Shown piece by piece: positions 34,345 to 43,499 of a DNA stretch of 64,000 bases. The position numbers were made by a program, and so were the translations under genes. The DNA is taken from NCBI GenBank assembly GCA_036323355.1, contig AP028876.1:1054001-1118000 (forward strand). The letters are read 5' to 3'. Below the pieces are notes generated by a model. That model did not search any database. It was not told the origin of the DNA and was given only the letters and a program-made list of their open reading frames with translations. Position 1 is the stretch's first letter. The number at the start of each line of letters is the position of its first letter. This stretch comes from Gottschalkiaceae bacterium SANA (GTDB lineage: Bacteria; Bacillota; Clostridia; Tissierellales; GPF-1).

Positions 34345-34580
34345 TAATAATTTATGCTGGGCTATGATGGAGAGCCTAAGGGTAAAAGAATTCACAGCGA
34401 GTCGATGGTTGGTGTAAATCGACAGTTCTTGACCTTAGTACTCCCTCCGGAGCTGGATTCTTGAATGAAGTAGAGGATCCCGGGTATTCCCGTTAAAAAA
34501 ACACGAGTGGCTCGAAAGAGCAACTAGGGTGGTACCGCGGAAACTTGTCCGTCCCTTTTGGGGACGGGCTTTTTTTATAC
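34345..34580 (+). promoter_or_regulatory. Leucine-specific T-box riboswitch
   Basis: The conserved T-box AGGGTGGTACCGCGG is at 34526-34540 and is followed by a terminator hairpin GTCCGTCCC/GGGACGGGC with a T-run (34547-34576). Stem I shows the conserved apical GTCGATGGTTGG region (34411 onward), and the specifier loop reads AGTA-CTC-CCTCCGGAGC, giving specifier CTC (34441-34443), a Leu codon read by tRNA-Leu(GAG). Uncharged tRNA would stabilise the antiterminator and let leuACDB be transcribed. A small AGCATAA/TTATGCT hairpin precedes it. Confidence 0.93.
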
Positions 34581-38992: not shown

Positions 38993-39021
38993 TTGACAAG
39001 GGGTGATTAGCCCCTTATAAT
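38993..39021 (+). promoter_or_regulatory. Consensus promoter of the first ilv cluster
   Basis: TTGACA (38993-38998), 17-base spacer, TATAAT (39016-39021). The first leader-peptide gene starts 69 bases after the -10 box. Confidence 0.9.
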
Positions 39022-39090
39022 CAGATTAATATTACGAATTGATTTACGAAACTGAACTTTCTGAAAGCAGTCTAAATTGGAGTGAAGATC

Positions 39091-39243
39091 ATGAATGCAA
39101 TGAACACAATCTTTTCAAACAATTTGAATATGCTCGTCCTCGTCTTGGTCCCTGTGCTCGTCGCACTCGTGGGCCTAGTCGTCGTGGTCGAAAATAAAAT
39201 TCAAAATTGTTGCGAAAGATCGAACCCATTGTATCTATGTTAA
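39091..39243 (+). CDS. ilv leader peptide 1 (Leu/Val-rich attenuation peptide)
   Basis: 50 codons with GGAGTGA before the ATG. The peptide begins MNAMNTIFSNNLNM, continues with LVLVLVPVLVALVGLVVVV (residues 15-33; 6 Leu and 10 Val codons, mostly CTC and GTC) and ends CCERSNPLYLC. The stop lies 17 bases before a strong terminator. This is the layout of a ribosome-mediated attenuator: slow decoding of Leu/Val codons would alter RNA folding and permit readthrough into ilv. Two related genes occur at 39350 and 43294 with the same N- and C-terminal sequences. I recognise no described family with the PLYLC ending. Confidence 0.82.
   Translation: MNAMNTIFSNNLNMLVLVLVPVLVALVGLVVVVENKIQNCCERSNPLYLC
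39147..39175 (+). promoter_or_regulatory. Conserved 29-nt hairpin in leader 1
   Basis: GGTCC (39147) pairs with GGGCC (39171) and TGC (39155) with GCA (39163) around loop TCGTC. It starts 56 bases after the ATG, exactly as in leader 3, and corresponds to 29-nt hairpins in leaders 2 and 3 with different but complementary inner bases. Confidence 0.65.
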
Positions 39244-39260
39244 ATTTGGTAAAATATACC

Positions 39261-39296
39261 AAACGGGGCGTTCTTCGGAACGGCCCGTTTTTTTAT
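39261..39296 (+). terminator. Attenuator terminator 1 (UUCG loop)
   Basis: AAACGGGGCGTTC, loop TTCG, GAACGGCCCGTTT, then a T-run. The same hairpin with minor changes follows leaders 2 and 3. Confidence 0.93.
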
Positions 39297-39349
39297 ATGA
39301 AAAAACATTTATCTCATTATTCTAAAGGAATACAAGTGGAGTAAAAATT

Positions 39350-39559
39350 ATGAATACAATGAAATCGACTTTCTTAAACAACTTGAATATGACTGGCTCA
39401 AACGTGTCAGCATTAGCACTTCTCTTGGTCTGCCTACTCGTCGTAGTCGTGGACCTCTTCTGCGTGCTCGTGAATATGATCCTCGTCGATCGAGTCGTCG
39501 TCCTGAGAGAAAAAGTTCAACCTGTTTTCGAAAGAATGAACCCATTGTATCTGTGTTAA
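39350..39559 (+). CDS. ilv leader peptide 2 (Leu/Val-rich attenuation peptide)
   Basis: 69 codons with GTGGAGT before the ATG. Starts MNTMKSTFLNNLNM, like leader 1, has a hydrophobic core with ALALLLVCLLVVVV and a second Val/Leu stretch (VLVNMILVDRVVVL), and ends ERMNPLYLC. It is about 19 residues longer than its relatives. No convincing promoter lies between terminator 1 and this gene, so it seems to be read only by transcripts that passed the first attenuator. A matching terminator follows its stop. Confidence 0.8.
   Translation: MNTMKSTFLNNLNMTGSNVSALALLLVCLLVVVVDLFCVLVNMILVDRVVVLREKVQPVFERMNPLYLC
39427..39455 (+). promoter_or_regulatory. Conserved 29-nt hairpin in leader 2
   Basis: GGTC (39427) pairs with GACC (39452) and CTAC (39434) with GTAG (39443) around loop TCGTC. 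The inner pairs differ from leader 1 (TGC/GCA) on both sides, as expected if the structure is selected. Confidence 0.65.
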
Positions 39560-39574
39560 CATGGATATGTATTT

Positions 39575-39607
39575 AAACGGGATGTTCTTCGGAACGTCCC
39601 GTTTTTT
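39575..39607 (+). terminator. Attenuator terminator 2 (UUCG loop)
   Basis: AAACGGGATGTTC, loop TTCG, GAACGTCCCGTTT, then T-run. Relative to terminator 1 the stem changes CG/CG positions to AT/GT while keeping pairing. Confidence 0.93.
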
Positions 39608-39739
39608 AATGCTGAATAGATCTTCGTTACACATTTAGCGGAGGGTTCAATCTGCTAATAAGTGGTGAAATGAAGATGGTCTGTCTGGAACAAGCTTCAA
39701 GGCAGAATTCATGTGATGAAGCCAAAGGAGGAAAAAACA

Positions 39740-39982
39740 ATGCAAACAATTTATGCGAAATTGGACAAGGGAATGGATAGTTTTATCCGCGTATCCAATA
39801 CCTTAAGACGAAAAGAATATGAAATTACTGGAATGAATTTGCAGGCAATCACCTCTGAAGCGGGCAGTCATGAAATGCATATTCATTTGCAGGGAAGCAA
39901 TCCGATGACAGCCAATCGAGCCATGAGGCAATTGGCAAAATTGATTGATGTTAATTCGATTCAATTAATCAGGGAAGCCTAA
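39740..39982 (+). CDS. ilvM: Acetolactate synthase small subunit, ACT-only (copy 1)
   Basis: 80 residues forming one ACT domain, the size of IlvM-type regulatory subunits. It should bind the catalytic IlvB subunit and may confer valine sensitivity. AAAGGAGG precedes the ATG at 39740. The first 76 residues are identical to the next gene, showing a recent tandem duplication; only the last residues differ (IREA against VK). It is the first structural gene after the two attenuators, about 130 bases past terminator 2. Confidence 0.88.
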   Translation: MQTIYAKLDKGMDSFIRVSNTLRRKEYEITGMNLQAITSEAGSHEMHIHLQGSNPMTANRAMRQLAKLIDVNSIQLIREA

Positions 39983-39995
39983 GGAGGAGATAATC

Positions 39996-40232
39996 ATGCA
40001 AACCATTTATGCGAAATTGGACAAGGGAATGGATAGTTTTATCCGCGTATCCAATACACTGAGAAGAAAAGAATATGAAATTACTGGAATGAATTTGCAG
40101 GCAATCACCTCTGAAGCGGGCAGCCATGAAATGCATATTCATTTGCAGGGAAGCAATCCGATGACAGCCAATCGAGCCATGAGGCAATTAGCAAAGTTGA
40201 TTGACGTTAATTCGATTCAACTAGTCAAGTAA
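39996..40232 (+). CDS. ilvM: Acetolactate synthase small subunit, ACT-only (copy 2)
   Basis: 78 residues, 13 bases after copy 1 and nearly identical to it at DNA level apart from scattered third-position changes. Same ACT-domain features (RVSNTLRRKEYEITGMNL). Two intact copies in a row imply either dosage selection for the small subunit or a duplication too young to have been resolved. A decayed third copy follows. Confidence 0.88.
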   Translation: MQTIYAKLDKGMDSFIRVSNTLRRKEYEITGMNLQAITSEAGSHEMHIHLQGSNPMTANRAMRQLAKLIDVNSIQLVK

Positions 40233-40237
40233 GCAGA

Positions 40238-40323
40238 GAAATAAACCCTATGACAGCCAATCAAGCCATGCGGAAATTAGCAAAGCTTGTTGATGTAACA
40301 TCTATATAATTAACTAAGGAGGA
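40238..40323 (+). pseudogene. Truncated third ilvM copy (3' remnant)
   Basis: In frame, 40247 onward reads [19 protein letters not shown], then a TAA where the intact genes have CAA (Gln), then LTKEEV and a stop. This matches the end of the ilvM copy at 43520 ([12 protein letters not shown]) and sits directly before ilvC with the same AAGGAGGAAGTATAAA junction. It is therefore the tail of the ancestral ilvM of this cluster, its 5' part lost, probably by unequal recombination. Confidence 0.8.
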
Positions 40324-40332
40324 AGTATAAAA

Positions 40333-41334
40333 ATGGCGAAAATGTATTATGACGATGATGCGAAATTTGAGGTAATTGCAGGAAAAACGGTGGCGATCTT
40401 AGGCTTTGGAAGCCAGGGTCATGCTCATGCGCTGAACTTGAAAGAGAGTGGTGCTTCTGTAATCGTAGGTTTGTATGAAGGAAGTCGATCTTGGCCCAAG
40501 GCTGAGGAAATGGGATTACAAGTTATGACGGTTGCTGAGGCAACAAAAGCATCTGATGTAATCATGATGCTCTTGCCAGATACACGTCAAGCAAGTGTCT
40601 ATGAAACAGAAGTTGCCCCTTATCTGGAAGCAGGAAAAGCCCTTGCTTTTGCTCATGGATTCAACATTCATTACAACCAAATTCGACCGCCCAAGGATAT
40701 CGATGTATTTATGGTAGCACCTAAGGGACCGGGTCATTTGGTTCGACGTGTCTATCAAGAGGGTATGGGCGTACCGGCACTCTTCGCAATCTATCAGGAT
40801 GCGACAGGCCAAGCGAGAGACATTGCTATGGCATACGCCAAAGGCATTGGCGCCATGAGGGCTGGTATCTTGGAAACGACTTTTATGGAAGAAACGGAAA
40901 CGGATCTTTTCGGCGAGCAGGCAGTCCTTTGTGGCGGCGTGACCGAGTTGATCAAGGCGGGATTTGATACCTTGACTGAAGCTGGATATCAAGAGGAAGT
41001 TGCATACTTTGAGTGTCTTCATGAAATGAAGTTGATCGTTGACCTTTTCTATGAAGGTGGATTTGAAAAGATGAGAGACTCAATCAGTAACACAGCTGAG
41101 TATGGTGATTACGTAACAGGCACGCGAATCATCACCGATGATACCAGAGCGGAGATGAAATCAGTTTTGGCTGAAATCCAAGACGGTACCTTCGCAAAAA
41201 ATTGGATTATGGAAAATCGAATCAATCAACCAACCTTTGTAGCGGCACGTCGCATTCAAAATGCACATCCAATTGTAGCGGTTGGAAAAAGACTTCGTTC
41301 TATGATGAGTTGGATCGGTGGGAAAGACGCGTAG
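40333..41334 (+). CDS. ilvC: Ketol-acid reductoisomerase (copy 1)
   Basis: 333 residues, class I KARI. Isomerises and reduces acetolactate or acetohydroxybutyrate using NAD(P)H and Mg. Rossmann motif [13 protein letters not shown] (about 25-37); the cofactor loop [12 protein letters not shown] carries Ser-Arg-Ser, typical of NADPH preference. Metal-binding residues lie in [16 protein letters not shown] and [14 protein letters not shown]. Roughly nine tenths identical to the copy at 43767, whose surroundings are also similar. Confidence 0.97.
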
Positions 41335-41367: not shown

Positions 41368-43029
41368 ATGAAGGGCGCAGAAATCGTATTAGAAGTTTTG
41401 AAAAGAGAAAACGTTGAGCTCATGTTTGGATACCCGGGTGCAACCGTAATCCCTTTGTATGATGCCCTGTATCGTGCAGATGACGCCCCGCGTCATATTC
41501 GAACGGTTCATGAGCAGCATGCTGTTCATGCAGCGGACGGATACGCACGGGCTTCGGGGAAACCGGGGGTTTGCTTGGTGACAAGCGGTCCTGGTGCATC
41601 CAATACCATTACGGGATTGGCAAATGCCTACATGGATTCAATCCCCATGGTCGTCATTACTGGTCAAGTGCCCACATCCTTATTGGGCCAAGATGCCTTT
41701 CAGGAATTGGATATAACAGGGATTACTTTCTCGATTACTAAGCACAGCTATTTGGTGCGGCATGTTGATGAGTTGGCTCAAGTGATGACAGAAGCCTTTA
41801 AGATTGCATGCAGCGGTCGTCCAGGACCTGTTTTGGTTGATATTCCTAAGGATATCTTCTTGGCGGAGACAAGACCCGATTGGAAGGCTATCGATCAGAT
41901 TCAGGGAGAAATTTTTGACACGTCTCTTGGCCATGAAATCAAGGAAGCGGTTCAAATGATCAAGGAGTCGGAAAGACCAATTATCTTGGCCGGCGGTGGT
42001 GTAAGAATGTCAGGTGCGGAAGCAGAATTGGTTGCATTTGCCGAGAAGACACAGATTCCGATTGCCAATAGCCTGATGGGTTTGGCTACCATTGATCGCG
42101 CAAATCCTTTGTCGATAGGCATGATCGGGATGCATGGTCATAAGCATGGTAATTTGGCGGTGACTCAAAGTGATTTGATCTTGGCCATCGGTACACGGTT
42201 TAGCAATCGTGTAGTTGGCAAGCGTAGTAGTTTTGGAAAGAACGCCAAGATTATTCATATCGATTTGGATCCCACAGAATTTGGAAAAGTAGTCGAACAT
42301 AGCTTGGCCATACCCGGGGATGTCAAAGCGATTTTGACTGAAATGACAGAGGCTGTTTCATCCGCTGAGCGTCCAGTCTGGTTGCAACGCATTCGTGATT
42401 GGCAAAATGGAGAGGCTTCTAATCGAGAGGTCGGATTCACACCGAAAAACATCTTAAGACAGATTAATCAGGCGACTGATCCTCGGGCGACTTTGGTTAC
42501 AGATGTGGGCCAGCATCAAATGTGGACTGCGCAGTATTGGGATTTTAAACAGTCGGAAGATTTTATTACTTCTGGGGGACTTGGTACTATGGGTTTTGGT
42601 GCGGGAGCAGCCATTGGAGCTTCTATGGCAAAGCCGGGGCATCCAACGATCTTGATTACGGGTGACGGAAGCTTTCGGATGTCAACCCCGGAACTTTTAA
42701 CGATTGCACGCTATCAATTACCAATTTTCATTGTGGTTATGAACAACCGAGCCTTAGGCATGGTGAGACAATGGCAATATCTTTTTGGCGATGAGCGATA
42801 TGCTGAAACGGATACGGATGAAACCATGAGCTTTGAAAAACTGGCAGCTGTTTACGATATTCCGGGTGCAACAGTGAGTACAATGGAAGAATTACAGGCC
42901 GTTATGGATGGTCGTAAATGGGAAGGTGGACCTTTCTTGATGGAAGTTCGGATCGAGAAAACCCATCAAGTATATCCCATGGTGTCACCGGGAAAAACCA
43001 TTGATCATGTCATCACGGAAAAAAAGTAA
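41368..43029 (+). CDS. ilvB: Acetolactate synthase large subunit (copy 1)
   Basis: 553-residue ThDP enzyme. Catalytic glutamate in VHEQHAVHAADGYARASG; ThDP-Mg motif GDGSFRMSTPELLTIARYQ ending in MNNRALG; FAD-type central domain around GTRFSNRVVGKR. The N-terminal loop reads GYPGATVIPLYDAL, where the second cluster and most AHAS have GYPGGAV, a small difference by the active site. Start has GGAGGG upstream. A terminator follows, ending cluster one. Confidence 0.96.
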   Translation: MKGAEIVLEVLKRENVELMFGYPGATVIPLYDALYRADDAPRHIRTVHEQHAVHAADGYARASGKPGVCLVTSGPGASNTITGLANAYMDSIPMVVITGQVPTSLLGQDAFQELDITGITFSITKHSYLVRHVDELAQVMTEAFKIACSGRPGPVLVDIPKDIFLAETRPDWKAIDQIQGEIFDTSLGHEIKEAVQMIKESERPIILAGGGVRMSGAEAELVAFAEKTQIPIANSLMGLATIDRANPLSIGMIGMHGHKHGNLAVTQSDLILAIGTRFSNRVVGKRSSFGKNAKIIHIDLDPTEFGKVVEHSLAIPGDVKAILTEMTEAVSSAERPVWLQRIRDWQNGEASNREVGFTPKNILRQINQATDPRATLVTDVGQHQMWTAQYWDFKQSEDFITSGGLGTMGFGAGAAIGASMAKPGHPTILITGDGSFRMSTPELLTIARYQLPIFIVVMNNRALGMVRQWQYLFGDERYAETDTDETMSFEKLAAVYDIPGATVSTMEELQAVMDGRKWEGGPFLMEVRIEKTHQVYPMVSPGKTIDHVITEKK

Positions 43030-43212: not shown

Positions 43213-43241
43213 TTGACAATCCCCGAATGGACCTATATAAT
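43213..43241 (+). promoter_or_regulatory. Consensus promoter of the second ilv cluster
   Basis: TTGACA (43213-43218), 17-base spacer, TATAAT (43236-43241), 52 bases ahead of the third leader-peptide gene. Confidence 0.9.
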
Positions 43242-43293: not shown

Positions 43294-43455
43294 ATGAATA
43301 CTTTGAATAGCGTTTTTTCTAACAATTTGCATATAATTATTATTATTCTGGTCCTCGAGCTAATCGTGCTCGCGGGCCTAGACGTCGTGTTTAAAAAGAA
43401 TAATTTGAATTGTTACGAAAGAAACCACCCACTGTATTTATGTTTAAATGAATAA
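43294..43455 (+). CDS. ilv leader peptide 3 (Ile-rich attenuation peptide)
   Basis: 53 codons with TTGGAGAG before the ATG. Begins MNTLNSVFSNNLH, then IIIIILVLELIVLAGLDVV (residues 14-32), and ends NCYERNHPLYLC plus three extra residues LNE. The five consecutive Ile codons (43333-43347) abut the conserved hairpin that begins at 43350, so a ribosome waiting for Ile-tRNA would melt it. The PLYLC motif falls at residues 46-50, exactly as in leader 1. Predicted to sense isoleucine, with Leu and Val as secondary inputs, and to control the ilvM-ilvC-ilvD-ilvB cluster. Confidence 0.82.
   Translation: MNTLNSVFSNNLHIIIIILVLELIVLAGLDVVFKKNNLNCYERNHPLYLCLNE
43350..43378 (+). promoter_or_regulatory. Conserved 29-nt hairpin in leader 3
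   Basis: GGTCC (43350) pairs with GGGCC (43374) and CGAGC (43356) with GCTCG (43368) around loop TAATCGT. It has the same length and the same offset from the ATG as in leader 1 but an unrelated, still complementary inner stem. Confidence 0.7.
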
Positions 43456-43464
43456 ACATGATCT

Positions 43465-43499
43465 AACGGGGCGTTCTTCGGAACGCCTCGTTTTTTTTG
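43465..43499 (+). terminator. Attenuator terminator 3 (UUCG loop)
   Basis: AACGGGGCGTTC, loop TTCG, GAACGCCTCGTT, then a long T-run; left arm identical to terminator 1. Confidence 0.93.

Follow-up and report, generated by a model that had tools for sequence, protein, structure and literature searches.

Two short open reading frames (ORFs) rich in Leu and Val codons, each followed by an intrinsic terminator, precede the first of two ilv clusters in the window, i.e. the whole stretch of 64,000 nucleotides analysed here, which belongs to a genome present as a single contig of 3.49 Mb. This arrangement raises the question whether both leaders work as attenuators on one transcript and, if so, what a second gate for the same amino acids would contribute. 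Judging from the sequence, we consider it probable (about 0.78) that the region comprises two complete ribosome-mediated attenuators of one family, which respond to the same signal (Val/Leu) and are arranged in series behind one promoter, ahead of ilvM-ilvM-ilvC-ilvB.

All elements of this cluster are located on the + strand. A sigma-70-type promoter (TTGACA-17-TATAAT, 38993-39021), which matches the consensus at 12/12 positions and is the sole consensus promoter ahead of leaders 1 and 2, is followed by the 5' untranslated region of leader 1 (39022-39090, its start being predicted), leader peptide 1 (39091-39243, 50 amino acids, with Leu/Val codons at codons 15-33), terminator 1 (39262-39294; hairpin at 39262-39289 with a UUCG loop and one G-G mismatch, then a U-tract), leader peptide 2 (39350-39559, 69 amino acids, Leu/Val-rich with CTC and GTC codons) and terminator 2 (39576-39607; hairpin at 39576-39603 with 12 pairs and a UUCG loop, then a U-tract). 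GGAG is located upstream of the ATG in both leaders and both ORFs, whose translation is predicted, are kept in all three species that were compared, the window species (G000) and two relatives of the same genus (G001 and G002), which are also all the species of the family among the genomes covered. The order promoter, leader 1, terminator 1, leader 2, terminator 2, ilvM is also common to 3/3 species, and both the single promoter and this series, as given in a preliminary description of the DNA, are thus confirmed. Downstream of terminator 2 lie ilvM copy 1 (39740-39982; Pfam ACT_5, an ACT domain of the acetolactate synthase small-subunit type), ilvM copy 2 (39996-40232; ACT_5), which repeats copy 1 at 93% over 256 nt, ilvC (40333-41334; ketol-acid reductoisomerase, Pfam KARI_N and KARI_C) and ilvB (41368-43029; acetolactate synthase large subunit type, Pfam TPP_enzyme N, M and C). 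A truncated third ilvM copy is found between ilvM copy 2 and ilvC (40244-40325), and the gap between terminator 2 and ilvM (39608-39739) is about 110 nt longer in the window than in the two relatives.

A simple terminator scan listed terminator 1 only (1 found, with a shuffle mean of 0.9), and a second scan gave both terminators. Folding of the window sequence yielded hairpin energies of -18.1 kcal/mol for terminator 1 and -18.6 kcal/mol for terminator 2. The G-G mismatch in the stem of terminator 1 is kept in 3/3 species and is absent from terminators 2 and 3. Among all leaders of the family two pairs of the terminator stem have both sides changed, i.e. they covary.

Leader 3 (Ile/Leu/Val) is the third member of this family and stands as a single leader in front of the second ilv cluster, which has the order promoter (TTGACA-17-TATAAT, 43213-43241, + strand), leader peptide 3 (43294-43455, + strand, 53 amino acids, Ile codons followed by Leu/Val codons), terminator 3 (43465-43497, + strand; hairpin at 43465-43492, then a U-tract), ilvM, ilvC, ilvD and ilvB. 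Its 5' untranslated region is 60-88% identical between species, as compared to 93-96% for that of leader 1. Upstream of both ilv clusters lies a leu operon with leuA, then leuC, leuD and leuB, the names being assigned from the protein sequences. Common to the three leader types are the end block CGAAAGA....ACCCAYTGTAT and the UUCG loop of the terminator. Without mismatch, the end-block pattern occurs in three copies in each of the three genomes of the genus, and a covariance model of the leader ends, built from the same nine leader sequences that it recovers, gave three strong copies in each of the three at 92-108 bits, the next-best match scoring 31 bits. The exact pattern is absent from all 246 other genomes of the order and occurs in 1/391 genomes of the class, the own genome only; likewise, the covariance model at E 0.001 with stricter filters matched 1/291 class genomes, again the own genome. 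Allowing 3 mismatches in the pattern was uninformative, with at least 212 of 249 order genomes matched and a reversed control matching equally often. No Rfam family covers the leader region at its gathering threshold, and none of the leaders reaches the gathering score of the T-box family RF00230, whose only match in the window is located before leuA (34355-34559).

The codon content of both leaders fits with control by Leu and Val. Leu and Val together account for 19/50 codons in leader 1 (9 Leu, 10 Val) and 28/69 in leader 2 (14 and 14), forming a run of control codons in each. Rare synonyms are strongly enriched: CTC makes up 9/23 Leu codons of leaders 1 and 2 of the window, compared to 5% in 44 window ORFs (binomial 8e-7), and GTC 14/24 Val codons, compared to 15% (binomial 1e-6). 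Over the three species, leaders 1 and 2 contain CTC at 33/68 Leu codons and GTC at 40/74 Val codons.

If the leaders are attenuators, a ribosome on the control codons should influence the formation of the terminator. Between the end block and the terminator (5' arm and loop) nine core pairs are possible in 9/9 leaders, and the predicted antiterminator 5' arm is located at 39213-39227 (CGAAAGA and ACCC) in leader 1 and at 39529-39543 in leader 2. These nine pairs are invariant across the 9 leaders and show no covariation, and duplex energy was rejected as proof, since 62-193 of 300 shuffles were as good; we regard the antiterminator as a conserved candidate pairing, short of proof. Pairing of the end block with the terminator arm would explain why the E-R..P-L-Y ends of the peptides are conserved at the nucleotide level. 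In folds of leader prefixes the end block was the partner of the terminator arm in 7/9 leaders; the exceptions are the second leaders of the window and of G002, where this arm pairs better with a GUCCUG site just upstream of the end block. As leader 2 of the window prefers this other partner in the absence of a ribosome, our confidence in the tandem attenuators is slightly lowered.

The end block is also complementary to the start of its own leader. The stretch from one base before the ATG to codon 4 can form a long-range duplex with it (39090-39102 with 39227-39239 in leader 1, 39349-39361 with 39543-39555 in leader 2), comprising 12/13 pairs in leaders 1 and 2 and 11/13 in leader 3 and enclosing another short stem. 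For the nine leaders 0-19 of 300 shuffles of the block and 0-16 of 300 shuffles of the 5' strand gave a duplex as good, the values being 0/300 and 6/300 for leader 1 and 19/300 and 4/300 for leader 2 of the window. When the partner was shifted by 1-3 positions, pairing fell from 89% to 16-51% (7 distinct rows). Covariation gave nothing in favour of the duplex, so that the evidence consists of these shuffle and sliding controls on nine instances that are homologous and hence non-independent tests. In our model, neither the start codon nor the antiterminator arm would be accessible within this duplex.

To follow the two pairings during translation we positioned a ribosome at each third codon in turn and computed the fold of the RNA lying downstream of it, in a transcript that stopped at the terminator loop. 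Without ribosome, the probability of the specific antiterminator was 0.00-0.01 in 8/9 leaders, leader 2 of G001 being at 0.48. A ribosome on the last control codons raised it to around 0.9 (leaders 1 and 3) or 0.6-0.9 (leader 2), and it was zero, by construction, once the ribosome covered the end block. Early stalls in leader 1 (every third codon from 16 to 25) resulted in only 0.00-0.56, the terminator arm being occupied by other upstream pairings. A generic measure, i.e. the 5' arm of the terminator being paired with anything upstream, amounted to 0.63-0.81 at the last control codon in 9/9 leaders and to 0.00-0.20 at the stop codon in all of them except leader 2 of G002, which stayed at 0.60. 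The leaders thrL, leuL and trpL of E. coli, used as controls, exhibited the same generic-pairing profile, and generic pairing at late stalls is not unusual, 4-89 of 200 shuffles being as good. When the full leader was folded at equilibrium the terminator won at every ribosome position sampled, implying that the decision for antitermination must be kinetic. The sensitive stretch of this walk is located after the Val codons in leader 1 and at Val49-Leu52 in leader 2, and as the Val codons of leader 1 lie beside the end block, Val may outweigh Leu in this leader.

From the parts, their order and conservation, the codon bias and the start-end complementarity, all read from the DNA, we infer switching, effectors and multiplication as follows. 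In the absence of a ribosome, pairing of the leader start with the end block would make both the start codon and the antiterminator arm inaccessible, and the terminator would form. If charged tRNA is short, a ribosome stalled late in the Val/Leu run would leave the end block (CGAAAGA...ACCC) unoccupied, and this block could then pair with the loop and 5' arm of the terminator, so that RNA polymerase could pass; a ribosome that reaches the stop codon would cover the end block, again with the terminator being formed. The order of the elements and the single promoter provide the anatomy for such a tandem, and if the gates are independent and share a transcript, this transcript would have to pass both, their readthrough probabilities multiplying. 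The claim of the preliminary description that two Leu/Val-sensitive gates are placed in series is therefore borne out as to order, promoter and codons, and the sensitivity of the gates is a prediction.

The tandem would be expected to leak less and to span a wider induction range, and sharpening would be no more than modest. In a toy series model with a basal value of 0.1 and a maximum of 0.8, one gate gave 8-fold and two gates 63-fold induction (the fold being squared), the effective Hill coefficient rose from 1.00 to 1.12 and the maximum output fell from 0.80 to 0.64; in the model overall, the Hill coefficient went from 1.00 to 1.07-1.16. The sharpening of the response suggested earlier is thus to be expected only weakly, less leak and a wider range being the main effects. 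The term AND gate, which had been offered too, misleads, as the two leaders encode one and the same set of amino acids and do not form a two-input gate.

These conclusions presuppose that the gates lie on one transcript and that both are functional. If leader 2 had its own promoter inside leader 1 or in the spacer, the two gates would work in parallel on separate transcripts. The best + strand matches in the spacer between terminator 1 and leader 2 are 8, 7 and 8 of 12 in the three species, and an 8/12 match inside leader 1 is found in 3/3 species, leader 1 itself being conserved. However, leader 2 and the region behind terminator 2 also contain matches of 7-9 of 12, the spacer matches vary by species, and identity between species amounts to only 67-75% in the spacer. 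The promoters of leaders 1 and 3, by contrast, reach 12/12 in every one of the three species, that of leader 1 having identical hexamers and spacing in G001 and G002 with a differing sequence between the hexamers. In the window, a simple scan of the region from terminator 1 to leader 2 listed no promoter-like site on the + strand and one 9/12 site on the - strand. The absence of a promoter at this position, stated before, is thereby upheld, and an arrangement in parallel appears very improbable. Somewhat less remote, though still unlikely, is that one leader, leader 2 or else leader 1, is a duplicate without function, so that one gate regulates and the terminator of the other is read through constitutively. 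Local duplication would fit with an end block of leader 2 that is nearer to that of leader 1 than to that of leader 3, with the likewise duplicated ilvM and its third, broken copy, and non-function with the finding that in the window the terminator arm of leader 2 pairs best outside the conserved block. Leader 2 is indeed longer than leader 1, as had been noted (69 versus 50 amino acids, and 67 and 60 in the relatives), and a high share of its codon changes between species is non-synonymous (14-26, as compared to 5-7 synonymous). Leader 3, a single gate, exhibits a similar pattern (11-14 versus 1-2), and the excess in both leaders is what one would expect if it is the codons that count, rather than the peptide. 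At 4-fold sites leader 2 agrees in 19/20, 18/19 and 22/26 cases for the species pairs, significantly more than ilvC of cluster 1 for the one pair G000 and G001 (69/138, Fisher 7e-5), also if only CTN/GTN codons of this gene are counted (18/27, p 0.03); the difference to the adjacent ilvM copy 1 (13/18) is not significant (p 0.08). Moreover, terminator 2 is intact in 3/3 species (-18.6, -20.4 and -20.4 kcal/mol) and, slightly to clearly depending on the species, more stable than the G-G-mismatched terminator 1 (-18.1 kcal/mol). As its frame is open in 3/3 species, the rare CTC and GTC codons as well as the RNA end block are kept, and the 4-fold sites are conserved, leader 2 is probably not decaying, contrary to what had been considered for it.

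The most serious competitor, which we regard as possible yet clearly less likely than a repeated test of one signal, is that the gates differ in set point or codon weight, e.g. Val versus Leu, giving a graded response with two thresholds. In line with this, the window has LVVVV in leader 1 but VVVL in leader 2 as the last control codons before the end block, and of the two terminators the first is less perfect in 3/3 species. Leu and Val counts, on the other hand, are near-equal within both leaders, and the folding walk is too coarse to separate the Val stretch of leader 1 from Val49-Leu52 of leader 2. A further, speculative and rather unlikely reading takes each leader as a one-ribosome lock, in which the end block sits on its own start, no second ribosome follows and one decision is made per transcript, two locks in series constituting a low-leak switch; in addition, leader 1 RNA might be released on termination and act in trans. 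The latter idea stems from the RNA of leader 1 being 93-100% identical between species over the stretch that runs from the -10 box up to terminator 1 (39022-39293), as compared to only 50% at the 4-fold sites of ilvC (one species pair). The trp leader RNA and peptide of S. meliloti reportedly act in trans after termination. The gene codY is present in 3/3 genomes of the genus. In the leader 1 region the best CodY box has 4 mismatches, 96-173 of 500 shuffles being as good, and is located elsewhere in the two relatives; in the leader 3 region it has 3 mismatches with 24-49 of 500 shuffles as good, and we do not claim either as a CodY site.

Taking two attenuators in series as the preferred reading, we compared the locus with ilv control in relatives. 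The leader peptides stand where most relatives use T-boxes at ilv genes, and the T-box before leuA adjoins the two ilv clusters that have leader peptides instead. An ilvC match was present in 47 of the 130 order genomes searched, the own genus included. Among 40 order stretches outside the genus, some genomes being represented more than once, 33 carry a T-box upstream on the ilvC strand, five of these at a distance of 2.2-3.6 kb; the 7 others include L145, for which there is no upstream sequence. A T-box was also found in 8/11 named ilvC loci, the 11 being taken from a set of 80. Two order relatives, L134 (4095-4994) and L153 (3991-4958), have the order T-box, ilvM, T-box, ilvC; judged by these matches, serial gating before ilvC is used by relatives too, with other hardware.

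A leader-peptide scan gave two matches in the 40 order stretches. L141 (2113-2430), from another family of the order, contains a single Ile/Leu/Val-rich leader ORF and a terminator before ilvN-ilvC, a credible BCAA leader with no T-box match beside it; the match in L149 is a 13-aa ORF inside or beside a T-box. A scan of the 80 named ilvC loci, restricted to the + strand and requiring a Shine-Dalgarno-like word and a terminator, revealed no ilv leader, the matches at L004, L049, L050, L075, L076 and L081 being judged unrelated by eye. Replacement of T-boxes by leader peptides is described for hisS genes of Firmicutes (PMC2965389).

With the amino-acid leader attenuators of E. coli (thrL, leuL, trpL) and the ilvD leader of S. 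aureus the region shares an ORF with control codons and an intrinsic terminator, and an alternative partner for the terminator 5' arm, as in those systems, is predicted for it. For the ilv-leu operon of S. aureus, a leader peptide rich in Ile/Leu and a terminator are described with genetic support (PMC5794164). Each of these systems has one gate, whereas here two complete gates of one family would act in series, with long control runs and a predicted start-end duplex. In a search of the open-access literature we found no tandem of amino-acid leader peptides for the same signal, which is weak evidence of absence. Two short ORFs are also translated in one leader RNA and control readthrough in mgtCBR of Salmonella (PMC3641672); there, however, they respond to different signals (ATP and proline), act additively and have stem-loops unlike intrinsic terminators, whereas here both leaders code for the same amino acids and each has an intrinsic terminator. 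The macrolide operon mefA/msrD likewise has two ribosome-mediated attenuators for the same inducer on one transcript, with the downstream gene behind both, but a gene separates its two leaders and the inducer is an antibiotic instead of amino-acid starvation (PMC10314930). The serial T-boxes of L134 and L153 also place two gates before ilvC, yet these are tRNA-binding RNAs with ilvM between the gates.

The closest parallel is provided by pseudo-cooperative tandem riboswitches, in which independent, complete switches for the same ligand are placed in series (PMC9481103). These bind their ligand directly, whereas the sensor here would be the translating ribosome, and by analogy the region is best read as their leader-peptide counterpart. 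Same-ligand tandem riboswitches are documented as a route to more switch-like control, and leader 3, the single-gate sister in the same genome, offers a natural control for the tandem. If our reading is correct, this genus-conserved tandem, with both leaders sensing one set of amino acids, would show that ribosome-mediated attenuation relies on the same strategy as riboswitches.
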